A DNA stretch of 64,000 bases from a virus: positions 1 to 64,000 of the IMG/VR virus record IMGVR_UViG_3300009184_000038. One strand, 5' to 3'. The notes under the pieces were generated by a model, which was given only the letters and a program-made list of their open reading frames with translations, was not told the origin of the DNA and searched no databases. Shown here piece by piece: positions 1 to 52,000 of the stretch (position 1 is the first letter of the stretch; every line of letters begins with the position of its first letter). The translations under genes were made by a program, and so were the position numbers.

Positions 1-467
1 AGCAGGCCGATCGCACGCACTTCGCGCTTGCGAATACCTCTCTGACCGTCCGTAGACCACGAGTCTCCACCGTCTCGCTTGATGGCGAAGGCGAAACTTG
101 ATCCGACGACTGTCCTATCCTTCACCCACTCGATAACGTCGCGGCCGATGGAGGTGTTTTCGTTCGGCGTGATCTCATAACGAAGACCATACGGGTCTTT
201 CGTGAGCTTCATCGTGCCGTTTCCGGTTCGGCCAAGGAGCAGATTGCGGTCGTGATTGAACACGCCGATCACATCCGGCCCCTCGGCGAGCACTTCGTCG
301 AACGCATTCTCATGAATCGTCTCGACGAACCCACCCAGGTTGCGACTTTCGGAGTTAAAGACGGCAGCGTAGCCCGCGATCACAGGCTTCCGCTCGCCAT
401 TGCCCGTGTCTCGGTACTCAACCGTAGCGTCCGAGACCGTCGTGCGCCGCTCAATTTCATTGCTCAT
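1..467 (-). CDS. HK97-type prohead protease, 3' part cut by window edge
   Basis: I translated the reverse strand by hand; 155 codons are present and the frame runs off base 1. The protein reads as a caudovirus prohead protease (peptidase family U35), which cleaves scaffold and capsid precursor during head maturation. It shows the AGYAAVFN start of the fold, FNHD with the likely catalytic His72, the LGRTGNGTMKL strand and GSSFAF with candidate catalytic Ser123/124. The ATG at 467 overlaps the stop of the upstream ferritin-like gene as ATGA, so the two are translationally coupled. Position after the portal matches HK97-like head operons; the capsid gene would be expected next, outside the window. 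Confidence 0.9.
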   Translation of the reverse strand, partial: MSNEIERRTTVSDATVEYRDTGNGERKPVIAGYAAVFNSESRNLGGFVETIHENAFDEVLAEGPDVIGVFNHDRNLLLGRTGNGTMKLTKDPYGLRYEITPNENTSIGRDVIEWVKDRTVVGSSFAFAIKRDGGDSWSTDGQRGIRKREVRAIGL

Positions 468-937
468 GCCGTCACCTGATTCGCGAGGTAGTTTTCCACA
501 CCGATCTGCTCGATAATCTTCCGAATGGCTTCAATGCCGGCCATCGAATCTTCGCTGCCACGGCGAAGCTTCATGAAAATCTTTGCCGTGACTGAGTCGC
601 CAACCGCGATGCACGTCACAAAGCCGGCCCGCTCGACCTCCGCGGCCGTCACGTCGGCGTCGTAGTTCACGTCAAGGATGGATTCAAAGTCGTGCCGGGG
701 CAGTTCGGGCTCGTCGTGCGTCGGCGACGGCTGGACATCGAAGAACTCAAGTCGTTCGGAGAGTTTCTTGATGTGCCCGCGTTCCTCGGCCGCATAGGAC
801 GCCCAGGTCTCGCCCAGCTTCCCGTAGCCCCAGCGGGTCAGGTGAACTGACTGAAGCTCATACATCTCGGCCTGCGAAAAGTGCAGGGCAAGGGAAGCCT
901 GCAATGCGTCGACAACGCCTTCAAGTGGCTGCGGCAT
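464..937 (-). CDS. ferritin-like / bacterioferritin-like protein
   Basis: A 157-residue helical protein resembling the first half of bacterioferritin. It has a first helix with Glu24, then a WGYGKLGETW stretch and an EERGH motif (Glu52, His55) like the Glu-x-x-His iron-ligand helix. The second half is less typical and I see no second Glu-x-x-His, so a full ferroxidase centre is uncertain. It overlaps the portal 3' end by 17 bases and the protease start by 4, inside the head operon. A non-enzymatic morphogenetic role for a ferritin-fold protein is an alternative to iron storage or detoxification. Family call is fairly sure; function is not. Confidence 0.65.
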   Translation of the reverse strand: MPQPLEGVVDALQASLALHFSQAEMYELQSVHLTRWGYGKLGETWASYAAEERGHIKKLSERLEFFDVQPSPTHDEPELPRHDFESILDVNYDADVTAAEVERAGFVTCIAVGDSVTAKIFMKLRRGSEDSMAGIEAIRKIIEQIGVENYLANQVTA

Positions 938-2570
938 CGGTTGTCAGGTGCTTGTCGCACCAGCCTTCTGTGACTGTTTCGTACTTCTGACCGCTGCGAT
1001 GGCACTCAAGCAAGAGTTCCCGCGAGCGGTTCACCCAATCCCCAACAAACTTGTCGATGTCTCGTCCAGTGGCCTCTGCGGCCTCGCGAAGTTCTTCTCG
1101 CATCCGCTGGCTCGTCTGATCGAACCACGTTGCGATCTTCTCGGGCTTGCTGCGGCGCTCGAGAACGCCGTCAGCTTCGACGGCGGCGAGACGGCGAAGG
1201 TTCGTCTTGAACAGCACCTCGGCACCGGCGACCTGTCGGGCATCCTCGGCAGCCGCGGGGGTGTCGGCGGCGGCCGGCTCGGGCGTGTCGGCCACGCCGG
1301 CCGGCGGAGCTGGCGAAGATTCGGTCTGCTTCTGCCCCGTGGGGTTGTCGGCGGTGAACGCCTCGAGCAACTGCATATTTACCTGAATGAACCGCTTCTT
1401 GCCCTGCCCGTCGGGCAGCGGGTTGTAGCCAATCTGCGAGCGAATTTCGTCGATGTCCAAGGCACCGAGGTTCGCCATCTCCCGCAGGAACTGCGAACGC
1501 GCGGCGTAGTCACCGACCATCAAGGCGTTCGTGTCGAACTGGCAGAAATACTGCTTGTCGTCGACTACGAGATCGCGGCGGCACGCCATTTCCCATCGGC
1601 GGCACCACGGGATCAAGCTGAACGTGACGAAGTCGATGGCCGACTGTTCCACAGTCGAGAAACGAACATTCGACAAATCACCGATAAGGTGGCCTGGGAC
1701 GCGGTAGGCACGCGAGACCTCCTCGCATTGGTACCGGCGAGTCTCAACGAGCATAGACGTATCGTTACGCTGCTCGATCTGCTTGCGGTGGAAGCCGAAC
1801 GGCATGACAACGGTTTTGTATGCGTTCATCGGCCCCTGATGGGCGTCGTTCCACTGCTCTCTGAACCGGGCCAGCACCTCTGGCTTGTGGGGCTGGTCGG
1901 TTTCGATGTAAGTGCCGGGCTGTCCGTTGTTCCCGAAGAATGCACCCGAGTGCAGCTCGGTCGCTCGGGCCAGACCGATCGCGTCTCGGGACAGGGTCGT
2001 TGGTACAAAGCCTGTCACCCCGTCTGACGAGAGCCACCGCAAATGAAAAATCTCGTCCTGCCGATACTCAGTGACCTCGATCTTGGGCTGAACCGGCGTC
2101 GTCGGTTCGGTGTAGTAATACCGGAGCTTGCCGTTGGTGAGCCGCTTGACCTCCATCCGCGAAGGATGCAGCGGGATAAGCTCGGTCACGCCGCCCTGCC
2201 GGCCGCCCTTGATGTGAGCGTAGGCGTTGCCCCAGAGCAGGAGCCAGCTTTGCATCAACTCGCGGAACTCGAAGCCCGTCATCCACGAGTTGGGCTGATA
2301 GCAGATGACCTCGTGGAGATGCTGCTCTTCGGCGATTTCCTTGCCGCCGCCGGGTAGGCGGCGGTAGACGTTGAAGGGGAGGCTGGCGATCGACTCCGAC
2401 AGTACGCGAACGCAGGCGAGAACAGCCGTGCATTCCAGGGCCGTCTCGGGCGAGACCGTGACGCCCGATGCCGTGCGTCTGGTATTGGAAATCTCCTCGA
2501 AGATGCGGGACAGATTGCCGCGAAGCTCAATCAGATCGGAGACTTCTTCGTCAATCTTATCCACGTTCAA
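921..2570 (-). CDS. phage portal protein (HK97/lambda-type family)
   Basis: 549 residues, usual length for the Phage_portal family. The N-terminal part has the typical ACVRVLSESIASLPF stretch (about residues 52-66), followed by the WLLLWGNAYAHI segment and the clip and stem region. The C-terminal 120 residues are Ala/Pro-rich then helical. The portal forms the dodecameric DNA channel at one capsid vertex and docks the terminase. The only reasonable start is TTG at 2570, which overlaps the TerL stop as TTGA. No strong Shine-Dalgarno is visible, so coupling from terL is likely. Confidence 0.93.
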   Translation of the reverse strand: MNVDKIDEEVSDLIELRGNLSRIFEEISNTRRTASGVTVSPETALECTAVLACVRVLSESIASLPFNVYRRLPGGGKEIAEEQHLHEVICYQPNSWMTGFEFRELMQSWLLLWGNAYAHIKGGRQGGVTELIPLHPSRMEVKRLTNGKLRYYYTEPTTPVQPKIEVTEYRQDEIFHLRWLSSDGVTGFVPTTLSRDAIGLARATELHSGAFFGNNGQPGTYIETDQPHKPEVLARFREQWNDAHQGPMNAYKTVVMPFGFHRKQIEQRNDTSMLVETRRYQCEEVSRAYRVPGHLIGDLSNVRFSTVEQSAIDFVTFSLIPWCRRWEMACRRDLVVDDKQYFCQFDTNALMVGDYAARSQFLREMANLGALDIDEIRSQIGYNPLPDGQGKKRFIQVNMQLLEAFTADNPTGQKQTESSPAPPAGVADTPEPAAADTPAAAEDARQVAGAEVLFKTNLRRLAAVEADGVLERRSKPEKIATWFDQTSQRMREELREAAEATGRDIDKFVGDWVNRSRELLLECHRSGQKYETVTEGWCDKHLTTDAAAT

Positions 2571-4069
2571 AGCACCATGAGGGTTGGTTCGTCGGTGTTG
2601 CCGTGGTTCTCGCTGCTGGAGATACCGAGGGCCATGATCAGAGAGACCGCGCCGTCGATGCGGGCCGTCGAGTGTGAGTGTTTTTTAGTAGGCTTTATGT
2701 TCCCGGCATCGTCGATCTTGACTTGAACATTCGACATCTGCCACGCCAGAACGGGGTTGCCAGCGTGTCTCAGCCTTTTGCCGACGACGAGTGTCTCGAG
2801 CAGCTTGCTCGGCGCGCTCATGCTGGCAAAGCCCTGTCCAAACGGCTTAACGTCGATTCCCTCCGCTACCAGTTGCGTCGTCAGATGCACCGCGTTCCAG
2901 CGGTCAATGGCGATGCCGCGAACTACATTCTTCTCGCAAAACGAGAGAATGTAATCTCGGACTGTGTCGTAGCAAGTGATATCACCATCCGTCATTCTAA
3001 CAAAACCAGCGTCCGCCCAGGCTTGATACGGCACTCGGTCTTCCTTCGACCGCTTGTGCGCGTTCTCCTCGGGGATGAAGAAGTGGGCGTGAACGTCATA
3101 CGTTCCATCGGCGTCGGGCCAGACCGCCACGAACGCCGTCGTATCGAATGTGCTGGCGAGGTCAACGCCGCACCAGCATGGCCGCCCTGCCGTCGGCCGC
3201 AGCGGCTCGTTGTTGGCGTCCCAGGCACCATGCCTGATCCACTTGGTTTCGGAACGCTGGAATAAATTCAAATGGAGCGTCTTGAAAACAGTCTCGTCTG
3301 CCGGCGAGTCCTTCGCCTTCTGTGCGAATTGATGGAAATACTCGGGTTTCAGCGTAATTCCGTAGTTCGGATTCGCCTTCTTCCACGTCTCCTCGACGAA
3401 CGGGTCGTCCTCGGGATCGGCGGCGTAGATGCACGGCAGGAACGAGTCGTCCTTCAGAACCCCATCGCGAATCTTCACTGCCCGCTGCCAGTCCTTGTAG
3501 CACGGGCCGTCCATGTCGGTGCCGGCCGTCGTGATGTAGATGGTGAGCGGCTGGCTCCTGGCTCCAGTACCCGTTTCCAATACATCGACCAGCTCGCGGT
3601 CGGGAAAGACGTGATATTCGTCGACCAGCACGCAACTCGGGTTGTAACCGTGTTTCGTGCCGGCCTCGCTGGAGATACAGAGCATCGTCGAGTTCTTTTC
3701 GGGGAACACGATGCTGTTGCGGTATATCTTGCACCGCTTCGCCAGCGATGGGCAGCTTTCGACGAACTGCTTCGCCGCGGTATGGAGCAGCGCCGCCTGA
3801 GAGCGGTCGCCGGCCGCGACGATCACCTCGGCCCCCTCGTCATCGCAGCACAACATGAACAATCCAACCGCTGCGGAAATCGCGGATTTTCCGTTCTTGC
3901 GGGGCAAGGCGAGCAGGCTTGTTCGATATTGGCGAAGACCGTCGGCCTTCTTCGTGTTGAAGAGTTTGTCGAGGTACTCGTCCTGCCAGGGTTGCAGGAC
4001 AAATGGCTGCCCCGCAAAGTCACCTCGACTGTGCTTCAGTAAGCCGATGAAATCGCGGATATCAACCAC
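2567..4069 (-). CDS. terL: terminase large subunit
   Basis: 500 residues, HK97-like Terminase_1 family. ATPase half: LPRKNGKS Walker A near residues 55-62 and VLVDE Walker B near 147-151. Nuclease half: CGVDLASTFDTTAF with Asp303 and GIAIDR with Asp389, the RNase-H-fold metal ligands. It packages DNA into the prohead through the portal and cuts it. The start is GTG at 4069, overlapping terS by 8 bases; the stop overlaps the portal start by 4. All key motifs are intact. Confidence 0.96.
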   Translation of the reverse strand: MVDIRDFIGLLKHSRGDFAGQPFVLQPWQDEYLDKLFNTKKADGLRQYRTSLLALPRKNGKSAISAAVGLFMLCCDDEGAEVIVAAGDRSQAALLHTAAKQFVESCPSLAKRCKIYRNSIVFPEKNSTMLCISSEAGTKHGYNPSCVLVDEYHVFPDRELVDVLETGTGARSQPLTIYITTAGTDMDGPCYKDWQRAVKIRDGVLKDDSFLPCIYAADPEDDPFVEETWKKANPNYGITLKPEYFHQFAQKAKDSPADETVFKTLHLNLFQRSETKWIRHGAWDANNEPLRPTAGRPCWCGVDLASTFDTTAFVAVWPDADGTYDVHAHFFIPEENAHKRSKEDRVPYQAWADAGFVRMTDGDITCYDTVRDYILSFCEKNVVRGIAIDRWNAVHLTTQLVAEGIDVKPFGQGFASMSAPSKLLETLVVGKRLRHAGNPVLAWQMSNVQVKIDDAGNIKPTKKHSHSTARIDGAVSLIMALGISSSENHGNTDEPTLMVL

Positions 4070-4544
4070 GCTTGGCTAGAAGAGCGTCCATTGGGTCTTG
4101 CACGACCTTCTCGGCGTGATAGCCCATTCGGGTGCGATCGGCTGGCGTCAGGCCGAGGACAGTCTCAAGCTGCCGGAGTTGCTCGTGGCAGTGATTGCTC
4201 TGGGACTGCCACTTGTTCGGGCGGCTGAAGCGGAGGGAGCCGTCGGGTGCCGTCACCTCGACCCACCCCGAGTCCAGCTTGGCAAGCTGCATCTCGGCGT
4301 CTCGCCAGCGATCCCAGATGATCGAGTATCGCGAGATCACTTCGACATCGCTCTCGGCCAGCGTGCCCATCCTTTGGGTGTAGCCGCAGACGAGGCTGAA
4401 CATCTCCCTGGCTGCCGGCCGCATCCATGACGGAGGGGCGGGCAGCGAGGACAAGGGTGTGCCTAACTCCTCGCGGTAGTTGGCTTCCTCGGAGCCTCGC
4501 AGCTTGAGGAGATGCTTCGGCGTTGGTGCTGGGCCGCGTGCCAT
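4062..4544 (-). CDS. terS: terminase small subunit (P27 family-like)
   Basis: 160 residues from ATG 4544, chosen because it gives the typical family start MARGPAPTPKHLLKLRGS and lies 2 bases after the stop of the HNH gene; a longer frame to 4607 would overlap that gene. Proline-rich linker near residues 33-40, then helical segments ending in the TPADRTRMG stretch typical of P27-type small terminases. It recognises the packaging site and recruits TerL, directly downstream with an 8-base overlap. Confidence 0.87.
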   Translation of the reverse strand: MARGPAPTPKHLLKLRGSEEANYREELGTPLSSLPAPPSWMRPAAREMFSLVCGYTQRMGTLAESDVEVISRYSIIWDRWRDAEMQLAKLDSGWVEVTAPDGSLRFSRPNKWQSQSNHCHEQLRQLETVLGLTPADRTRMGYHAEKVVQDPMDALLAKRG

Positions 4545-4546
4545 GC

Positions 4547-5587
4547 CTAAGAGTATTGCACAGTAGGTAAGGGCCCCGCAAAGGAGTCGGATTTCTTGAT
4601 GTTGCACGCCCAGCAGGCGGCCTGGACATTGTCGGGTCTATGGCCTGGGCCGGAGGGGCCGTAAGACAGGGGCACGATGTGGTCGATCGTGGGGCTGCGT
4701 GGGTGCGGAGTCTCGCTGCCATCGATCTTCGTCCATTTGGAGAGCAGCTCACACTGGCATATCTGGCACGTCCAGTTGTCGCGATGAAGTATCGACTTCG
4801 CTGGAAACGATTCGTAGTGGCAGCCGTATTTAATGCACCTACGTTTGTGTCCGCCAGAATTGATTCCGACATTCAGCGGCGTGCATGTGTCGTTACCCCA
4901 CGAGCTGAACCAGACGGCGATCTGCTCGTCAAGCGTAGCTCCAGGCCGGCTCGTCAGCCTAGCGCATGGAAGGCGAAGTCGCCTCGCCTCGAAGGCACAT
5001 TCTCTGGAGCAGTATTTGCCAGCGTTTCGCCCAGATGTGCGCTTTCGGAATGGCTTTTGACAACAGAGGCACTGCCGCCGCTTCGCCCGCCTTTTGGATG
5101 CCTCCGCTCGCTTTCCCTGGGCCTCCGAGATGGCTTTTTCAGCGCAGGGCCGCGAACAGAACAGGCTTCTTGACCGGCCTGGGATAAAGGCTTTGCCGCA
5201 GCACTTGCACGCTTTTTCGGCGAATCGACTGGGGTATCGGCATTTCTCGCTACAGAACATCGAGTTGATTAACCCGACGAAGCTCACGCCGCATCCGCAG
5301 CACGTCCGATCGTGAACCCTCTTCTTCCGCTTCGCTGCACGGCGGCACGCTTCAGAGCAGTACCTTCGCGACCGCCCACTCGCTCGCGAGTCCTGCGGAA
5401 CGCCGGCACCGCAGGAGACGCACGCAACAGTCGCTGGCTTTAGCGGCCTCCCCTCGGCGGCTCGCTGGCAGCGACGAGAACAGTATTTTCTCGGCTTAAC
5501 GCCGAGCGAGGGGGGGAGCGACGACCCGCAAACAACGCAGCATTTGCCATCCTTGGCGTTTTCTCCGGCGTCTCCACGCACCCACAC
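4547..5587 (-). CDS. HNH endonuclease with five tandem Cys4 zinc fingers
   Basis: 346 residues from a GTG start (no upstream or nearby in-frame ATG). Residues 17-197 hold five CxxC...(Y/F)CSxxC units: C17/20-C36/40, C56/59-C77/81, C96/99-C112/116, C127/130-C144/148 and C173/176-C193/197. The C-terminus is an HNH nuclease: C274/C277, the DHIVPLSYG core with His303, Asn320 and C325/C328. HNH proteins next to terminases assist packaging cleavage in several siphoviruses. Five DNA- or RNA-binding-type fingers in front of the nuclease is unusual. A homing-type endonuclease is the alternative. It is the first gene of the leftward head operon. Confidence 0.85.
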   Translation of the reverse strand: MWVRGDAGENAKDGKCCVVCGSSLPPSLGVKPRKYCSRRCQRAAEGRPLKPATVACVSCGAGVPQDSRASGRSRRYCSEACRRAAKRKKRVHDRTCCGCGVSFVGLINSMFCSEKCRYPSRFAEKACKCCGKAFIPGRSRSLFCSRPCAEKAISEAQGKRAEASKRRAKRRQCLCCQKPFRKRTSGRNAGKYCSRECAFEARRLRLPCARLTSRPGATLDEQIAVWFSSWGNDTCTPLNVGINSGGHKRRCIKYGCHYESFPAKSILHRDNWTCQICQCELLSKWTKIDGSETPHPRSPTIDHIVPLSYGPSGPGHRPDNVQAACWACNIKKSDSFAGPLPTVQYS

Positions 5588-25869: not shown

Positions 25870-26543
25870 TACTTTTCAAGCTCCCGCAGCACGCCCTCGA
25901 TGATCGGGTGCCTGACAATGTCTGTGCCCTTGAACTCGACGACGCCAACGCCCTTCAGGCCCGACAACCGCTGCATCACGTCGATCAGACGCCGCTCGCT
26001 CCTGGGGAGGTCGGACTGGTCGGCATCGCCCGTGACGATGATCTGGCTGCCCGTACCGAGGCGGGTGAGAAAGAGCTTGAGTTGCCCGAACGTCGAATTC
26101 TGTGCTTCATCAAAAATCATGACAGAACGCGAGAATGTGCGGCCTCGAAGGTATGCGAGAGGCGCGATCTTCACCGCGCCGCTGATGCGGTCGCGGGTAT
26201 GGCCGCGCTTGCCGGCGATCCGCTCGAGCGCGTCGAAAAATGGCACGAGGTACGGGCCGACCTTCTCTTCTGCACTTCCAGGCAAGTAGCCGAGCTGCTC
26301 CGTCGCCACCGACGGTCGTGTGATCACGATGTTCTCCACCTTGCCGTCAACGAGCTGCTGGACGGCGTAACCGCTCGCCAAGTGTGTCTTCCCCGTGCCG
26401 GCTGGGCCGAGCACGAACGTAATCACGCTCCTGCTGATCACCTCGAGCGCGTGAGCCTGGGCCTTCGTGCGTGCGGCGTAGCCCTCCGGCGGCGGCGGCA
26501 GTGCGGGCTTCTTCTTGGATTGGCGTTCGCGCTTTCGGTTCAA
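25869..26543 (-). CDS. phoH: PhoH-like ATPase
   Basis: 224 residues from TTG 26543, chosen because GGAG lies 7 bases upstream and TTGA overlaps the methyltransferase stop. Walker A GPAGTGKT at 46-53, ITRPSV at 73-78, Walker B VMIFDEAQN at 141-149, then IVTGDADQSDLP. Basic N-terminal tail. PhoH proteins are common in phages; RNA-related helicase or nuclease-linked roles are proposed but the phage role is unsettled. Confidence 0.92.
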   Translation of the reverse strand: MNRKRERQSKKKPALPPPPEGYAARTKAQAHALEVISRSVITFVLGPAGTGKTHLASGYAVQQLVDGKVENIVITRPSVATEQLGYLPGSAEEKVGPYLVPFFDALERIAGKRGHTRDRISGAVKIAPLAYLRGRTFSRSVMIFDEAQNSTFGQLKLFLTRLGTGSQIIVTGDADQSDLPRSERRLIDVMQRLSGLKGVGVVEFKGTDIVRHPIIEGVLRELEK

Positions 26544-28966
26544 GTGTTGTCTCCTTTAGTGGCCTTATTAATGCGGTAACCGAGCCAGACCATGCACGGC
26601 ACGGCCATGCTGTTTCCGAGGGCGCGGTAGCGGGGGCCGTCGGCGGCTGGCTTCTTGCGGAAGATGATGTCTGTGTGTCCTGCGGGGAAGCCTTGCAGAT
26701 ACTCGCACTCGGATGGCGTGAGGCGGCGCACTTGCATGGAACTGCGGACGCTGGCGTCTGCGACGAACGTGTCCTGTGAGTCACGGCCACTTCCGAACAC
26801 CCCGCCCTTGCCCTGCGCACCAGCGGAAATCGCATACGCTGGGTCTGGGAATCCAGACGGAGTCGGCAAGCACACATTGACCGCGTCGGCTCGCCCGCCG
26901 CCGCCTGGATTCGTTAGGGAAGGAACGACGCCGTCCTTCATGATCTCCGGCACCTTGACGCCGTCCCGCGAGCGATTGGCGAAAGCCACAGCAACCATGT
27001 GCTTCGGCGGCTCGTGCCGCTCGTCCCAGCCATTCAAGCAAGCAGAAACGGCGGCCTCTTCGTATCGCGGAGCCTCTTCCTTACTGTGCGGGTTCGTCGC
27101 CTTGACGTAGGCGACGGCAGGCTGCGCGATATACGTCTGCTGGTGGCTCCCAGGCTCTGCACTGCACACGCTGGCGACATCAAGAATGCGAACCTCTTCT
27201 CGCTGGTTTTGGGTGAATGCGACGGCGTGCGGCTGACTTGCGTCCATCGTCGGAGAAAGCTCCTCCAGCGGATTGAAAGAGGGGTTCCGCAGTCGAACTC
27301 GTCCCTCCGCATCTGCACTAGGAGTTTTTGCGACCCCCTCTCTCCCGGCGTCACCTCGCAGCCCGTAGGCGACGGCCAACTGGCCGCCAGCGTTTGCGTT
27401 GCCGTCAACGTGCTGCATCGCCCGCATGGTCGGCGACAGCTCTGCGGTAGCATCGCCGCTGTAGTCCTTGGCCGTAAACGCGACGGCAGGCGTGTTGCAC
27501 CGCTGGAGCGGGCCAGTGCCCTCTTCTGTGATGCCCAGGCTATCATTGGCCTTGCCGTAGCCGCCGCCGTTCTGCCAGTTGAATCCCACGGCGTTTGCGG
27601 GCTGCGCGATCACGCATGACGGTCGGCTCGGCCTGTCTTCTCCCTCGGCCCGCAGCGTGCCCGCTATCTCGTCTTTCATCCAGAAACCTTGGCCGCTCTC
27701 CCGCATTGCGTGAGCCTGCGCGGTAGCACAGACAACCGTATCCTGATCGCCCTTGTCCGCATCGGCCGAAAGCGGCGGCGCGATATCTGATGGCTTGCCG
27801 TCCTTGCCTCGCGTGAAATGCGATGGCTTAAAGCAAGTCGCCTCGTCAAAGACACCCCCTGTGGTAACGATCGGCGTTTGGCCTTCGTCCACCGTCGTGT
27901 TCATGCCCTTGTGCATTCGATGCGTCAGCGGGTTGGCGACAGACGGCAAAAATGCGACCGCTGTATGCGTCCTGTCCGTTAAGCCCCCCCCCCTGTGAGC
28001 ACCATCAGAGAGAGTTCCAACAACATTAGGAACGCCGACAACTTCTCTCTCACCAAAAGCCGCAGAACCGCAGCCTTTGAAGTAGTGCGAGTCCAGCGTG
28101 CCTGCACACTGCCCGCTGATCCCCACCGCCGCCGGCCCCCTAGCGACCATGCTGCCAGCCACGCCGTCCTGCGTGATCTGCGGCTTGTACTGAGCATTCA
28201 CTCCTTGGTTGAACATGGCTCGGTCAAGGTAGCACGGCTCACCACCGACTCGAGGGCGTCCTTCAGTGCCGGCGGCAGCTCCTTGCCCCGCTTTGCTGCG
28301 CGACGGAGGATTCCCTCGCACGCTTTCGCGGAGAGAAAGTATCTCGGATGGACAGGCGTCGTCTCCAAGACTTGCGACAAGTTCACAAGGCACGGCAACG
28401 AGAAAGACTCGCCTACGCCTCTGAGCCACCCCAAAGAATTGGGCGTCAAGGATTCGATAACCCACTCGTCGGGTTTCTCCACAAACATAGCCTGCTTTAG
28501 GCCACTTACCTGTTTCAGTTTGAGGGGCTTCATCGCACCCAGCGAGCGCTCCGATGAGGCATCCAAAGGCGTTGTCCTTTGTTGAGAGGAGTCCAGGGAC
28601 ATTTTCGTAAACAGCAATTGCTGGCGGTCTTCCATGACGCTTTCTCACTTCATCTATGTGGTTCAGTAGCCTAACGTAGGCTAGCGTGATATTGCCTCTA
28701 TCATCATCCAGACTCTTGCGGAGACCGGCCACGCTGAACGCCTGACACGGCGGGCCTCCGACGAGGAGGTCGCACTCCGCAAGAATTTCTTCGGGCCATT
28801 CGGCGAACTTCGTCATGTCGCCGAGGTTCGGCACCTGGGGCCAGCGAGCCGCGAGCACGGCAGACGGGAACGCCTCGATCTCGCTGAATGCCAGCGGCGT
28901 CCAGCCAAACCCGTGGAATGCGACAGTGGCGGCCTCAATGCCGGAACAGATGCTGATGTAGTTCAT
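26540..28966 (-). CDS. DNA cytosine-C5 methyltransferase with a very large inserted region
   Basis: 808 residues. Catalytic half: ISICSGIEAATVAFHG (motif I), GGPPCQAFSVAG with Cys74 (IV), ENVPG at 121-125 (VI), AQRRRRVFLV (VIII). The C-terminal motifs IX-X appear only at 747-790 (RRLTPSECEYLQGFP, ALGNSMAVP). The roughly 530 residues between them consist of loose repeats built round VAGTL/VAPxL and AVAF-like blocks. This region should hold target recognition; normal enzymes have 80-150 residues here. Likely protects phage DNA from restriction. ATGA-coupled upstream. Confidence 0.9.
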   Translation of the reverse strand: MNYISICSGIEAATVAFHGFGWTPLAFSEIEAFPSAVLAARWPQVPNLGDMTKFAEWPEEILAECDLLVGGPPCQAFSVAGLRKSLDDDRGNITLAYVRLLNHIDEVRKRHGRPPAIAVYENVPGLLSTKDNAFGCLIGALAGCDEAPQTETGKWPKAGYVCGETRRVGYRILDAQFFGVAQRRRRVFLVAVPCELVASLGDDACPSEILSLRESVRGNPPSRSKAGQGAAAGTEGRPRVGGEPCYLDRAMFNQGVNAQYKPQITQDGVAGSMVARGPAAVGISGQCAGTLDSHYFKGCGSAAFGEREVVGVPNVVGTLSDGAHRGGGLTDRTHTAVAFLPSVANPLTHRMHKGMNTTVDEGQTPIVTTGGVFDEATCFKPSHFTRGKDGKPSDIAPPLSADADKGDQDTVVCATAQAHAMRESGQGFWMKDEIAGTLRAEGEDRPSRPSCVIAQPANAVGFNWQNGGGYGKANDSLGITEEGTGPLQRCNTPAVAFTAKDYSGDATAELSPTMRAMQHVDGNANAGGQLAVAYGLRGDAGREGVAKTPSADAEGRVRLRNPSFNPLEELSPTMDASQPHAVAFTQNQREEVRILDVASVCSAEPGSHQQTYIAQPAVAYVKATNPHSKEEAPRYEEAAVSACLNGWDERHEPPKHMVAVAFANRSRDGVKVPEIMKDGVVPSLTNPGGGGRADAVNVCLPTPSGFPDPAYAISAGAQGKGGVFGSGRDSQDTFVADASVRSSMQVRRLTPSECEYLQGFPAGHTDIIFRKKPAADGPRYRALGNSMAVPCMVWLGYRINKATKGDNT

Positions 28967-43164: not shown

Positions 43165-44340
43165 CTATGAAATCCAGAGCCGGAACTTTCCTTTTGAATT
43201 AGTACTGGAAGCAGTCCAATCCGCTGTTGAACTGTACGAAGTGCCTGTCGTTGAACTCAATTTGATGACATCTCCAGCGGTAACACTTATAGTCCTGCGC
43301 GCTCCGTGTGTGCCGAAAAATGTCTGACTGCCCACAAATGCTGTAGATAGAGTGCCGTTTCGCACATACCTCACCATGTCAGGGATTTCCGAGCCGTCAT
43401 TCTCTCTGCCGCCGAACTCAACTGTAAGAGTGCCAGAAACCCCGCAAGTAAACTGCCAAACACGGTAAGTATTTGCGCCGTATCCCCAACCCCAATCAAT
43501 TCCGTTTGGGGCAGCCGCGTCACTGGTTTGAAGCGGGCTTGCTGCTGTTCCGCTGCCGCTCCATGAGTACGCTGTCCCGACATCAGCGGTGCCGCTAGAG
43601 GGACTGACTGTAAGGCTCGCCGCACTCGGCGTGACGCTGCTGCTCGCCGCCGTGAAGGTGCCAGTACCCGCCGCACTCACGCCCGCAACTCGCACGGTAT
43701 ACGCCGTGCCGTTAGTTAAACCCGTCAGCGTGTAGCTAGTGCCGGTGCTGCCGGTAGACACAGTCTGGGCAGAGCCGCCCGATGGCGTGTATTCGACGGT
43801 GTATCCAGTGATTGCAGAGGTGCCGGGCGCAGACGGTGCCGTCCAAGACAAAGCGATCTGCGCGTTGCCTGCGGTGGCCGCGAGAGATGTGGGTGCATTG
43901 GGTGGAGTTCCAGCGCTAGGCGTGACGCTGCTACTCGCCGCCGTATAAGCACCCGTGCCTACGCCGTTGACCGCCGCCACGCGGAATCGATACGCAGTGC
44001 CGTTCGTCAGCCCCGTGACGGTCGCGCTCGTCGCGGTCGATGCAGCCGCCGAGAACGTCGTCCACGTTGCACCGTTGTCGCTACTAAACTGCTCACGGTA
44101 GTCGGTGATCGGTGCTTGCGCGATCACGCCAGTGGGTGCAGTCCAAGACAGTAAAGCCTGCGCGTTGCCGCCGGTCGCCGTGAGGCCGGTCGGTGCAGGG
44201 GGCAAGAACAAATCCCACCGGGAGTCTGCGGCTCCGGCCGATGCGACGAGTTCCCACGCTGATCCTGTCCACGACCACGTCCTTCCGTTGGCCGCGTATG
44301 TCTGTCCGACTGTCGGAGATGCTGGTGGAGAGAGCGGCAT
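43165..44340 (-). CDS. tail-fibre protein with two fibronectin type III domains
   Basis: 391 residues from ATG 44340, overlapping the upstream stop as TAATG. N-terminal module (MPLSPPASPTVGQTY, WSWTGSAWELVAS) shared with the gene upstream. Two FN3 domains (about 55-240): PTGLTATGGNAQALLSWTAP and PTSLAATAGNAQIALSWTAP, each ending in VTP. C-terminal beta domain (LTVEFGGRENDGSEIPDMVR, ISVTAGDVIKLSSTTG). Likely a receptor-contacting fibre. Confidence 0.83.
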   Translation of the reverse strand: MPLSPPASPTVGQTYAANGRTWSWTGSAWELVASAGAADSRWDLFLPPAPTGLTATGGNAQALLSWTAPTGVIAQAPITDYREQFSSDNGATWTTFSAAASTATSATVTGLTNGTAYRFRVAAVNGVGTGAYTAASSSVTPSAGTPPNAPTSLAATAGNAQIALSWTAPSAPGTSAITGYTVEYTPSGGSAQTVSTGSTGTSYTLTGLTNGTAYTVRVAGVSAAGTGTFTAASSSVTPSAASLTVSPSSGTADVGTAYSWSGSGTAASPLQTSDAAAPNGIDWGWGYGANTYRVWQFTCGVSGTLTVEFGGRENDGSEIPDMVRYVRNGTLSTAFVGSQTFFGTHGARRTISVTAGDVIKLSSTTGTSYSSTADWTASSTNSKGKFRLWIS

Positions 44341-45710
44341 TAGGCGATACCCCATTTAGTCTTCAAAAACGTGCTGATCTGCCCGATTGCGGTGGACGAA
44401 ATCTGCTGGTCATACAACGCGACCTCGCAGATATAGCCCTTCCACCGCTGGTCGGTTGACTGCGAGCCGAGGTTTGCGTAGCCAATAGTAAAACGGTCGC
44501 TTCCAGATGCGGGCGTCAACGTCCCACCGTCCTCTGAGTAGTATGTCAAGCCTACTGCCGTGCCGTTGACATACATCGCAGACGATGGAAGGTTGCCGCT
44601 AGGTATAGACATAGCTATGACGGCAAACGTGTTGTTGTAGGCCGACGAAGGGCTGAGTTGAGAGAAATATGTATTATTTTGCTGCCATACAAAAAGCGCA
44701 GCGTAGTCGTGCCTTACTTGCCATCTCCAGCCAGTATACAAACCCTGCGTCTTTGCAATCAGCGTGCCATAATTGTTCGCGTCTACTTTGGCGACGATGA
44801 ATATCGTGCCGCCGGTCGATGTCAGGCCCATTCCATCGACGCCGTCAAGGCCGAGTCCGATCAGCCCGCCTCCATCGACGCCGAACTGAAGAACTGAACG
44901 GCCATTCTGGAAAGACGATCGAAGAGTCGGGCCTGTGTAGGCCGCATTGATTGCATCCGCTCGCAGCGTGGCGTGCCGACCGTTCCCCGATCGGTCTTCC
45001 CAGCGTTTCACGACGCTGTCCGCCGACGCGACTGATCCGCCAGAAACCGCCCCATAGAGCGTGCTGGATTCTGAGGCGTCATACCGTGCAAACAGACCAG
45101 AAGTCGTCTGGATGATGTCGCCCGAGGCAGGAGTCACGGCACTGCTCGCAGACGAAAACGCACCCTGCCCGAGGCTGTTCGCTGCGGCCACGCGGAACAC
45201 ATACGCCGTACCGTTGGTCAGACCCGTCACCGTCGCAGTAGTGCTGGTTGAAGTCCCGTCGCTGAAGGTCGTCCACGACGAGCCCGAGTTGCTGCTGAAC
45301 TGAACGACATAGTCCGTAATCGGCACTGCCGAAAGCACGACTGTAGGTGCCGTCCACGAAACGGTCGCTTGTGCGTTGCCGCCTGCCACAGTCACGCTGG
45401 TCGGCGCGGCTGGCGTGAACAATGCTTGAAGCACTGTGTCTGTGCCGTCTCCACCAGCACTACCACCGCTCACGCCCAACTCAAGGTAAGCACCCTGCCA
45501 TTGGTAGGCGCGAGACGTGTCCGTTGCCAGATAAATCACTCCGCTACTCCCCGTCGCGGGGAATGCGAAAACCGTCGCGGCAGCGACTACTCCGCCGCCA
45601 CCGCTCGCGGCGACGAGTTCCCACACATTGTTTCCCGCGTAGCGGTACTCTCGCGAGTTTTGCGTTGACAGTGCCCCAACTGATGGGTTGCTTGGGAAGC
45701 TCAGTGGCAT
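44340..45710 (-). CDS. tail-fibre protein with FN3 and LamG-like lectin domain
   Basis: 456 residues (AGAGG upstream). Start MPLSFPSNPSVGALSTQNS and WELVAASGG as in the downstream gene; one FN3 domain (APTSVTVAGGNAQATVSWTA); then a concanavalin/LamG-type domain (VVKRWEDRSGNGRHATLRAD, GTIFIVAKVDANNYGTLIAK, DQRWKGYICEVALYDQ). Lectin fold points to host-glycan binding. Confidence 0.83.
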   Translation of the reverse strand: MPLSFPSNPSVGALSTQNSREYRYAGNNVWELVAASGGGGVVAAATVFAFPATGSSGVIYLATDTSRAYQWQGAYLELGVSGGSAGGDGTDTVLQALFTPAAPTSVTVAGGNAQATVSWTAPTVVLSAVPITDYVVQFSSNSGSSWTTFSDGTSTSTTATVTGLTNGTAYVFRVAAANSLGQGAFSSASSAVTPASGDIIQTTSGLFARYDASESSTLYGAVSGGSVASADSVVKRWEDRSGNGRHATLRADAINAAYTGPTLRSSFQNGRSVLQFGVDGGGLIGLGLDGVDGMGLTSTGGTIFIVAKVDANNYGTLIAKTQGLYTGWRWQVRHDYAALFVWQQNNTYFSQLSPSSAYNNTFAVIAMSIPSGNLPSSAMYVNGTAVGLTYYSEDGGTLTPASGSDRFTIGYANLGSQSTDQRWKGYICEVALYDQQISSTAIGQISTFLKTKWGIA

Positions 45711-46024: not shown

Positions 46025-49000
46025 TTACCATGCCGTAAGGGCAGCAACGAAGTCTGTGCCTGCACTTACGCTTGCCCAATTTATCTGCGGGCCGATCCGA
46101 GTCGGCGACAGCACAACCGAGACCGAGTTTCCACCAATTTGAGCGCTCCTGTTGCTGCCCCAGCCCCACAGCTCGCCTTCTGCCGTGGTCGCGAAGGCGC
46201 ACTCGCCGCTGACGGAAACGCTTGACCAAGTTTTACCGAGTCCGATCTGCGTCGGAATGACTCGGGGGTCGGTCGTCCCGTCGCCAATCCCGTAACTGCC
46301 ACCGCCCCACCCCCAAAGGCCGCCGCCAGATGTGATCGCATATGAAATTGCGTTACGCGACGAACCTCCGACCCAGTCGCTTGATGTTCCGATTCGGACG
46401 GGTGAGGTTCTGGGCGAGATTGTCCCGTCACCGACTGCGCCAGAGGCGTTGTAGCCCCAGCCCCATAGCTGGCCGGTCGTCGTTATGGCAAAAGAATTGT
46501 CGCCTCCAGCAAAAACTTTTGACCAATTCGTTGCCGAACCAATTCTCACAAGGGTTTCTGTAGGGTTAGTCGTTCCGTCACCGACTTGGCCGAAATTGTT
46601 GTATTCGCCGAGACCCCAAAGTTCACCAGCCGAGTTGATTGCGAAGATCGTAAACCCTCCGCAGGCGACAGCAACCCAATTGCTTGCCGACCCTATCCTT
46701 CGAGGGGTATCCGGCGCTCCCTGCAAATCAACTCCCCAAGAATAAAGAGCGCCCCCAGCAATTCCCGCGGAGTGGTAGTCGCCAGCAGAAACAGAAGTCC
46801 AATTTGAGGCCGAACCGACGAAGAATGGGGAGTTCTTGTTATCTCGCGAGCCGAGGCCAAGCTGCCCATAACCGTTGAGCCCCCAGGCCATCAAGCGTCC
46901 AGTTGTTGTGATCGCTAGCGAATGATACCTACCGGCAGCGATACTCGAGAATCGAATTGAGGAAAACGATATCAGCCCCGACGGCGGCGGCGGCGGGACG
47001 ATGTTGTATGTGCCGCTTCCAAGCTGCCCCTGCGCGTTGTTGCCGCCCCATGCCCAGACCTGACCGGATTCGTCGGGTACGGACAGCGGAGCAGGAGCGC
47101 TCGTGAGCGATGTCGAGAACGTGGAGCCCGAGAGGCCAGACGTTGCCGTCACAACAACCCTATACACGTCGCCGTTGTCGCTCGCATATTTCAAGTTATT
47201 CAGAGACAGAGTCGCGGATGCTCTTCCTGGCAAGTCGACGAAGCTTCCAACACCTTTCGTCTGCTTCTGCCACTGATACGAGAGAGCAGAGAAAGGCGAC
47301 GTTGTGGCCGATACGAGAAAAGTAGCTGCACCATACAGAGACGTTTGAATCGTCGGCTGGTATGTGATACTCAGCGACGGGCTGGGGACGTTGAGTGTGG
47401 CTGTTCTGCTGAAAACGGTGGGCGCTCCGCTTGCGGAGATCGCTGCCCGATAAGCGTCTTGATCGTTCACTGACGCAGTGAGTCCTGACAGCGAGAGCGT
47501 CCGACTCGTTGCAGAGGGAATGTCGGCGAACAACGACGATCCAGGCTTCTTAACTTGCCACTGGTAAAAAACGGTCGCGAGATTCGAGGAAGTTGCGTTA
47601 GTTGAGAAAACAGCCGAGCCAGTAAGAGACAAGAAATCTTGAGGCTGCTCTGTGATATTTATGTCCGCTGACGGAACATTCAATACTGCGATCCCGCTCG
47701 TCACGCTGACGCCGGAACCATCTGCTGACGAGACGACGACACAGTATTCGTCGCCATTATCGGCGGCTGGCGTCAGCCCGGTCAGGCTCAAAACGCTGGC
47801 GGTCGCTCCGGCAACGTCAGTAAACGTGCTTGACCCGCCCTCCCGTTTTCTCCACTGATACCGGAGCGAGCCATACGAGATGGTCGCCGTAACAGAAAGG
47901 GCCGCAGTGCCGCTGTAGGTCAATACACTTTTCGGATCGGACAGCACCGTGATGGCCGGCAGTGGCACGGTCAGGGTTGCGGAAAAGCTCGTCGCGCCGA
48001 TCAAGCCGTTTGTACCCGAAATCACAACCCTATAAACGTCGCCGTTGTCTGTGACTGCCGATAGCCCTGACAGGAAGAGGTCGGGCGAATTAGAGCCTGG
48101 AATGTCTATGAAAGGCCCAGCGCCAGACTCTTGTTTTTGCCATTGCCACGCCAGCGATGAAGAGCCGACCGTTCTTGTAAGGACAGAAAATCTCGCCGTC
48201 CCGCTAGAGGCAAAAACAGACGCCGGGTGCGAGATGAACTCAACGTAAGGCGTGGGCAAGACGGTGAGGGTTGCTTCATTGCTATACGCTGCCGCCGCCC
48301 CTCCTGTCGCCGACACTATCACGCTGTAAGCGTCTCCTGTATCAAACACGGGGCTTAAACCCGTCAGGGCAAGCGTAGCGCCCGTCGCGCCGGGCACGTC
48401 TGTGGAAGTCACGCTGCCCGACTCTCGCTTCCGCCATTGGTATGAGAGAGTCGCCCCTCCGGTCACGCTTGCGGCCACAGAGAATGTTGCGGAGCCTCCG
48501 ACGGACGATTGCGAAGACGGCTGACTCGTTATCACGATTACCGGCACCACTGCGAACGACAGCTTCGCTGCTTGGCTAGTGACGGATGCTGCGCCACCTG
48601 TTGCCGAGACGACCACGCGATACCAGTCGCCGTCATCGCTCGCGGACGAGAGCCCCGTTAGCGGCAGGGTTCTGGATGTCGCGCCGGTCACGTCCGAGAA
48701 CGGGCCTGCGCCCGACTCTTGCTTCTGCCACTGATATGACAAAGTGGCCCCGCCGGTCACGGTGGCGGTTGCGGCGAACGTAGCCGCATTGCTAGCCGCC
48801 TGCTGGCTGGTGGGTTGCGAAGTGATTGCGATAACAGGCAAGGAGATCACCGTCAACGACGCCGCCCGCGACGTTACGCTCGCTGCCCCGCCAGTCGCAG
48901 AGACAATGCAGCGGAATTTGTCTCCGTTGTCGCTGGGGGATGCGGGGTAGATCGACAGGCTGGCACTCGTTGCGCCGGATATGCTCCCGCCATTGGATAC

Positions 49001-52000
49001 ATCCACGAAAGCCCCCGCCCCAGACTCCTGCTTTTGCCATTGATATGACAGCACAGAGCCGCCCGTGACTGAAGAAGACACAACCAAAGTCGCCGTGCCC
49101 CCCTCGGCGACCGAAGCGTCCGCGGGGCTGTTGCTCTGAACAGTGATTGCGGGAACAGGAACGCTCAGTGCGGCAGAAAGACTCGTAACCGAGACCGCGC
49201 CGTCTGTTGACGAAAGGACAACCCGGTATACGTCTCCGTTGTCGTTGGCGTAAGTTAGCCCAACCAAGTCGAGGCTCGCACTGGTGGCACCGGAGACAGC
49301 CACGAACGGGCCAGCGCCAGACTCTTGCTTTTGCCACTGATATGAAATTGTCGCACCACCCGTAACGGACGCAGAGACGCCGAAAGTCGCTTCGCCAGAG
49401 ACGTTTGCAGTGCGACTAGACGGTTGTGACACAATGGTGATGACCGGAGAGGCTACGGTGAGCGTAGCCGCACCGCTGGTGACGCTAGTCGCTGCCCCCG
49501 AGGCAGAGGCAACGACCTGATACAAGTCGCCGTTGTTCGTGGCGTTTGTCAGCCCGGTCAGCGCGAGTGTTGAACTCGTGGCTCCTGGTATGTTTGCAAA
49601 GCTACCAACGCCCGCTGCCCGTCGCTGCCACTGATACGAGACCGTTGGGGTGAAGGTGGCTACGGCAGTAGCGGTAAAGGTAGCAGAACCACCCACCGCG
49701 ACTTGGCTTGAGGGCTGCGAAGTAATCGTTATTACTGGAACGGGCACCAGAACAGCCACGGCCGCGCTCGTGACACTCGTTGCTCCACCAGTGGCTGAGA
49801 TTACAACGCGATATAGGTCGCCGTTGTTCAAGGCGTTCGTGAGACCCGACAGCGACAGCGTGTTACTTGTGGCACCGCTTACGGTGACGAAGTCGCTGAC
49901 GCCATAAGCCGATCGCTGCCATTGATAAGAAAGCAGTGCCACTGCCGAAGCAGAGGCCATAACCGAAAAGGATGCTGCACCACCGTTGGCAGTCTGGGGG
50001 GCTGGCTGCTGTACGATGGCGATCACGGGCAGCGGTACGATCAGCGCCGTCGCGTTGCTGGTGACGCTCGCTGCTCCGCCAGTTCCAGAAACCACGACGC
50101 GGTAGGCGTCTCCGTTGTCGTTTTGGTTTGTCAGCCCCGTGAGCGTCAACTGAAACGATGTCTTCCCGGCGATGTCTGCGAAATCGCTTGCCCCATTCTC
50201 GCGTTTCTGCCATTGATATGAGACCGTAACGCCTGCGCTTGCGGCAGCGGAAATATCAAGCAATGCCTGACCGGAAGATGTATTTGTGGTTTCCGGCAAT
50301 CTGCCGACAGTCAGCTTCGGATACACAATCGCGGATTCGCTTGAATATAGAGCGGCTGCACCGCCAGTCGCGGATACAGCTACCCGATAAACATCCGAGT
50401 CGTTGTCTGCCGTCAGGCCGGTCAAGGACAGGGTTGACGATGTCTCGCCGGCAACGGTCGCGAAGTCGCCGACTCCGTACCTCTTTCGCTCCCACTGGTA
50501 TGAAAGCGTTGCGCTTTTCGTGACAGAAGCGACCACGGTAAGCGATGCCACGCCGTTGATCGCGACCCTCGTCGCCGAGGGCTGCTGCGAGATGGTGATG
50601 AAGGGCGCGGGGACGGTAAGGGACACGGCGTTGCTCGTCGTCGTCGTCGCGCCGCCGGTCGCGGACACGACGCAGCGATATCGAGAGCCGTTGTCGGCAG
50701 GGGTTGTGAGGCCCGTGAGGGTCAGCGTTGCGCTCGTGGCAGTTGGTATGTCAGCGTAAACGCTCGACCCAGACGCGGCTCGTTGCCACTGGTAGAAAAT
50801 CGCGGAACCAAGCGTGGCGGTCGCCGTAATCGAAAAAGTGGCTTCTCCAGTCAAGGAGGCGACGGCTGCTGAAGGCTGCGAAGTAATCGCCAGGACAGAC
50901 GAGGGGACGCTCGCTGTGAGTGTCGCAGAAGCACTATTCACCGTGCTGAAGCCAGACTTTGAGAATACAGCGCGGTATCTTGACCCGTTATCGCCAAACA
51001 TCGGCCTAAAAGAGAGCGACGGAGATGTTGCCCCAGCGATAGTTGACCAAGTCGCCCCCGCGTCGAGGGATTTTTGCCATTGGATAGACGGGACTCCAAA
51101 GGGAGTCGTCGCAGACGATGAGAACGTCGCTGATAGCACGCCTCCAAAGTCAATGACAGCAGCCGATCCGTTTAGGATGAATCCGCTGCTCGACTTGGCA
51201 TACTTGATCGCCTTGTTGCCGACGACCTGTCTCTCTGTCGTGAACTGAGGCAGCGAGCTTCCCCTGCTTGTCCAAGTGAGGCCGTCAAGACTGGTGTAGA
51301 AGACTGGCACGCCCGCAGAGCTTCTTCCGTTCGCCATGAAGCCACCGTCGACCGCCGTGATTGTGTCGGCCTGCTGCGCGGCTCCGCCAGATTGGCGAAG
51401 AACCCAATTCAGCCCATCGTTGCTGCTCGCGATTCCAGTCGCCGTCAAGGCTGCATATCTTCCGTCGCGGAACGCTATTCGGCTAATCTCTAAATTAACA
51501 CCGCCGAAGTCCCACGATCCGTCCGGTCGCTGCGCGTAAATTACGCTACCGAAACCGCTTGCCGCTGGCCCTACGATGACGAATCGCCTTCCGTCATGCA
51601 CGGCATGAGTAAGCGTGGAAGCAAAGATGCCCGTTCCTGACGGCGACCCCACGCCAGCGTTCGTTACTTCATAAATCGCATCAAAGTTGGCACCAGTCAG
51701 TAGAATTTTCGATCCGTCGCTTGAAACGCATATCTCTGGAACGGTGGAAGACGTTGTTGCCGATACGGAAGTCCAAGAATTCCCATTGCGCGAGAATAGG
51801 ATGCGGCCTGCGCCTTGGTAAGCAAAGAACCACCCTCCTCCGCTTTCAACGAAATAGAGATCGGAAGTCACCGATGAAGATGACGCAAGAGACGACGTGG
51901 TGCTTGTCCAGTTAATCCCGTCAGTGCTTTTCGCGGAAACGATCGTAGCTGACCTTGGAAGAACCGTTAGATAAACTCCGTTTCCATGCACTACTCGCGA

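Follow-up and report, generated by a model that had tools for sequence, protein, structure and literature searches.

The window analysed here is a 64,000-nucleotide stretch (positions 1 to 64,000) of the virus record IMGVR_UViG_3300009184_000038, a record of 74545 bases referred to below as G000. Its first genes, all on the minus strand, form part of a head operon, within which lies an open reading frame for a bacterioferritin-like protein:

3..467, minus strand: prohead protease, N-terminal 155 amino acids (PF04586, E=2e-30), the remainder lying at G000:73356-74543
464..937, minus strand: bacterioferritin-like protein of 157 amino acids with an ATG start (Pfam, PDB profile, AF2 model)
921..2570, minus strand: phage portal protein, the upstream neighbour (PF04860, E=6e-87)
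2567..4069, minus strand: terminase large subunit, head operon context
4062..4607, minus strand: terminase small subunit, head operon context

The bacterioferritin-like gene shares 17 nt with the portal gene, and its stop codon shares bases with the protease start (465-467); the coupling to portal and prohead protease described in the earlier note is therefore confirmed, with both genes overlapped and both neighbours identified by Pfam. Because the protease is cut by the contig end and its missing part is found at the record's other end, also on the minus strand, G000 appears to be a near-complete, circularly permuted genome. Elsewhere on the minus strand of the window lie a 2972-aa ORF at 46025-54943, in the tail/structural half, two fibronectin type III proteins at 43165-45710, possibly tail or surface proteins, and an 808-aa protein with a C-5 cytosine DNA methylase domain at 26540-28966.

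The open reading frame at 464-937 is a real gene and not a chance ORF, because close relatives keep it in the same place and its dN/dS lies well below 1. Pairwise values of ~0.02-0.28, mostly <0.2 and close to those of the portal gene, indicate that it is under purifying selection. The product matches PF00210 (Ferritin; E=8.7e-10, 39.1 bits against a curated Pfam cut-off of 24.5), and by sequence its closest counterparts among solved chains are bacterioferritins (Bfr; 4am2, E=3e-8); no matching family was found in PHROGs. Structure prediction, which the earlier note had proposed as a check, gave an AF2 model (16 relatives as input, mean pLDDT 88.5) in which four long helices are followed by a short fifth one, the arrangement of a Bfr subunit, and the best structural matches of this model are nearly all bacterioferritins (Z ~23-24, rmsd 1.2-1.5 Å, ~155 residues). 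The description of the protein as bacterioferritin-like with a Glu-x-x-His helix thus stands, the helix being that which carries E52-R-G-H55.

Alignment to Bfr, in which phage numbering equals Bfr numbering plus one, locates the residues of the metal site and its surroundings as follows; counts here and below refer to 101 distinct phage sequences spanning the site, unless another total is given:

881..883, minus strand: H19 codon, at the Bfr Glu18 position in helix A, invariant (101/101)
773..784, minus strand: E52-R-G-H55 codons (Bfr E51/H54), with R53 replacing the haem ligand Met52, by alignment to Bfr
689..697, minus strand: R81-H82-D83 codons, a motif at the start of helix C, invariant (101/101)
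653..655, minus strand: D95 codon (Bfr Glu94, helix C; D or E in relatives), by alignment
632..634, minus strand: E102 codon (Bfr Leu101), 102/102
545..556, minus strand: codons 128-131, S-E-D-S replacing the Bfr helix-D ExxH (E127/H130), by alignment

The R81-H82-D83 motif occupies what we take, by the alignment, to be the position of the Bfr ferredoxin docking residues. Among the Bfr di-iron ligands E18, E51, H54, E94, E127 and H130, only E51 and H54 (as E52 and H55, each in 101/101) and E94 are retained, the last as D in 40 and E in 61 distinct sequences. Bfr E127 is replaced by S128 in 101/101 and Bfr H130 by S, A or G at position 131, such that helix D reads S-x-x-S/A/G in all relatives and the second ligand set, which the earlier note had thought missing, is indeed absent. 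Y26, equivalent to Bfr Y25, is present in 101/101, and the haem ligand M52 has given way to R, F, L or Q at position 53, Met being absent in 101/101. Put in terms of the four motifs described for Bfr/Ftn proteins, namely E-x6-Y, ExxH, E-x6-L/I and QxxE/ExxH (PMC12120770), the phage family has H-x6-Y, ExxH, [DE]-x6-E and S-xx-[SAG].

Because H19 and E102 appear jointly and invariantly, these substitutions argue for a metal site that has been rebuilt, not one simply lost or decayed. The conserved residues suggest that H19, E52, H55 and D/E95 likely form a mononuclear 2-His/2-carboxylate site, with E102 as the probable second-shell partner of H19. Di-iron four-helix bundles have internal pseudo-symmetry, on account of which residue 102 should approach residue 19, and by this analogy a Glu-His pair (E102-H19) at a single metal is plausible. 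The protein represents a phage-specific branch of the Bfr fold, kept by purifying selection, whose metal site is unlike that of any Bfr inspected in this analysis.

Compared with the bacterioferritins of Escherichia coli (1bcf), Pseudomonas aeruginosa (BfrB) and Azotobacter vinelandii (1sof), the phage protein shares the four-helix bundle and short C-terminal helix and keeps E51/H54, Y25, W35 and the NYL C-terminal motif. However, it is only ~18-25% identical to them and phage-encoded, has Glu18 changed to His, Leu101 to Glu and Glu127/His130 to Ser/Ser, lacks Met52, and does not keep the ferredoxin docking residues. Relatives of Bfr type are carried by 46/294 Planctomycetota genomes, and many of these (e.g. 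L288, L289, L291) have in common with the phage family the loss of the helix-D ligands, with an SE[DE]S motif; in contrast to the phage protein, the bacterial SxxS forms keep Glu18 and the haem Met52 and have Tyr at 101. The planctomycete sequences L288-L294, L297, L300 and L304-L306, with S/T-x-x-S for the helix-D ExxH and with Glu18 and Met52 intact, constitute an unusual bacterial Bfr group in their own right. In a tree for which Planctomycetota were searched, the phage family forms a long separate branch whose point of attachment speaks neither for nor against an origin in the planctomycete SxxS clade. Close-family patterns applied to GTDB representatives brought up no bacterial relative. 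One contig assigned by binning to a Planctomycetaceae MAG encodes a portal relative (59%) and lacks the bacterioferritin-like gene, a weak hint as to the host. Matches in INPHARED include two Acinetobacter 'phage' records as well as MT835709, which was set aside since it appears to be bacterial DNA encoding an ordinary Bfr. Among proteins of other phages, BFVD entries A0A8D9C9X5 and A0A8S5ME27 (ferritin-like/Dps-like) resemble the present protein in being virus-borne and of ferritin-like fold, at 11-18% identity.

These comparisons bear on whether the gene supplies an ordinary auxiliary bacterioferritin that stores or detoxifies iron for the infected cell. Sequence and fold are nearest to Bfr, and the SxxS found in helix D of Planctomycetota Bfrs makes that loss alone compatible with a working cage. 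Nevertheless, the changes of Glu18 to His and Leu101 to Glu and the loss of Met52 extend to all phage sequences, H19 or E102 is found in 0/30 of the planctomycete Bfrs inspected, and the alignment indicates that the Bfd-docking residues are not kept. Ordinary storage is argued against because the ferroxidase and haem residues are lost, and we consider this account quite improbable. Storage of iron for the host cell, one of the roles entertained in the earlier note, is likewise unlikely in its classical sense, the helix-D di-iron and haem ligands being gone in 101/101.

The distribution of the gene, which was followed through uncultivated phages represented by metagenomic sequences, bears on its relation to the head. 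In the first scans, every close relative was located in the portal/protease region. A wider profile search identified 213 contigs encoding the protein; in 61 of the 71 loci of the wider scan, portal and protease stand beside the gene, and in ten neither was recognised by the models used, although some contigs recur across scans under different locus numbers, such that locus counts do not equal independent phages (residue counts, as given above, were taken over distinct sequences). Three of these ten were inspected: L278 has the gene behind a UvrD-type helicase and in overlap with an N6/N4 DNA methylase gene, and in L252 and L246 tyrosine integrases lie nearby, accompanied in L252 by CsrA. On a portal tree of 81 rows, the gene is present in 53 and absent from 28, which requires at least 6 changes of state; it is therefore not kept with portal and protease throughout the clade, as a conserved head-morphogenesis gene would be. 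L066 and L067, whose flanks are near-identical, differ by a base-precise deletion of the gene, after which L066 has just small pieces of either gene end; L039 retains a 3' remnant, and L048 shows a clean absence. Relocation of the gene was considered and discounted: in 11 gene-less records, many of them fragments, no ferritin was found elsewhere, and four gene-bearing control records were positive.

Where the gene is present, its versions can differ far more than their surroundings. Between the window and L031 the portal is 98% and the protease N-terminus 95% identical, compared with 51% for the bacterioferritin-like protein; the corresponding figures for portal and bacterioferritin-like protein are 96% and 50% in L016/L053, and 97% (over 341 residues) and 58% in L010/L072. 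At the DNA level, the flanks in swap pairs are mostly 82-100% identical, with a few lower windows, and the inside mostly 43-77%, the shift falling near the gene borders. These profiles indicate that versions only 50-58% identical have been exchanged between phages at the borders of the gene.

The head context is therefore real, yet not obligatory, and the gene is no conserved part of the head. Since portal and protease flank the gene at most loci, it may have some link to the head, including the virion binding raised in the earlier note. In its strongest form, such a link would mean that the Bfr fold has found a new use, either at the portal or in the prohead interior, as an assembly factor or as packaged cargo. 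Encapsulins contain ferritin-like cargo. The fixed portal/protease position in all close relatives and in most loci of the wider scan, the gene overlaps with both neighbours, and weak fold matches in BFVD to proteins named prohead protease all agree with this proposal, as does the report of host bacterioferritin in CsCl-purified virions of phage AXL1 (PMC9206674). Against it stand the clean deletions and swaps amid conserved neighbours, the other genomic contexts (L278, L252, L246), and the capsid ORF of G000, which appears to carry an N-terminal scaffold-like region, with no scaffold gap evident. A head-building role is disfavoured because the gene is deleted from an otherwise intact operon, swapped at ~50% identity between neighbours of 95-98%, and found beside a DNA methylase gene; reuse for assembly, as the earlier note had suggested, loses ground for the same reasons, and we judge a head-associated function unlikely.

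Because host-acting accessory genes show deletion, swapping and varied context of this kind, we favour, with a probability of roughly 0.45, an exchangeable accessory gene whose product is a haem-free Bfr-type subunit with a rebuilt site, which would handle metal inside the infected cell and might do so together with host Bfr. The gene would be a discrete phage-specific unit passed between phages and located, in this clade, in the head operon. Its subunit would lack haem and have the di-iron ferroxidase centre rebuilt to hold one metal. Its most likely target is iron or another metal inside the infected cell, where it would work as an oligomer of its own, become part of the host's bacterioferritin shells or compete with them.

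A specific form of this accessory reading holds that the protein is a poison or light-chain-like subunit that enters host Bfr cages and changes or blocks iron storage. Planctomycetota genomes carry Bfrs, a need to suit different hosts would agree with the exchange of divergent versions, and in Magnetospirillum ferroxidase-deficient Bfr subunits work in mixed 24-mers (PMC6529640), a precedent that also favours the broader accessory reading. Bfr2 of Magnetospirillum gryphiswaldense is, like the phage protein, a Bfr-type subunit with altered ferroxidase residues, but it is a haem-binding partner of Bfr1 encoded in a bacterial operon, whereas the phage protein is without the haem Met (PMC6529640 for Bfr2). 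Moreover, most of the residues that E. coli Bfr is reported to need for oligomerisation (K33, Y45, D56, E60 and E128; PMC6529640) are altered, K33, Y45, D56 and E60 being changed or variable in the phage family and only E128 kept, which would speak against easy cage formation. We regard the poison-subunit form as rather unlikely.

A related and similarly speculative proposal is that of a protein with a rebuilt mononuclear 2-His/2-carboxylate site (H19/E52/H55/D-E95 plus E102) that near-identical phages exchange as an allelic cassette because it has to match, and would commandeer or inactivate, the cages in which different hosts store their iron; this, too, is unlikely. Tail proteins and host regulation dominate the discussion of phage interest in host iron. 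If host iron storage is the target, the gene would offer a direct, testable case of a phage handling host iron with its own ferritin-like protein.

Finally, a HiPIP-like four-cysteine domain, possibly 4Fe-4S, is found in the C-terminal region of the prohead protease in many of these phages; in G000 it lies outside the window (G000:C1:73494-73766, minus strand). The domain, which occurs also in L003, L007, L023 and others, has a PDB profile match to 3h31 (E=1.5e-4) and is recognised by Pfam HIPIP in 21/26 members (best E=1.7e-4); its AF2 model, at a pLDDT of 45, is not reliable. First counts of the domain against the bacterioferritin-like gene, 41/11 with the gene and 4/19 without it, suggested that the two were linked. 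As a specific partner of the gene it was nonetheless rejected, in that only 1-2 of 5 independent contrasts agree on the portal tree and the domain has a much broader distribution, being encoded by at least 589 viral contigs, with no copy of the gene in the stretch examined at 55 of 77 inspected loci. A prohead protease that bears an iron-sulfur-like domain seems unusual by itself, and a literature search for work joining ferritin-like proteins or HiPIP with prohead protease found nothing relevant. Fusion of ferritin to the protease in gene-less phages was also considered, and Pfam detected none in nine proteases, six of them from gene-less phages. In BFVD, three proteins of uncultured Caudovirales phages named 'Prohead protease' (A0A6J7WIS1, A0A6J7XDU5 and A0A6J7WPK9) give a weak ferritin-like fold match and may be ferritin-protease fusions.
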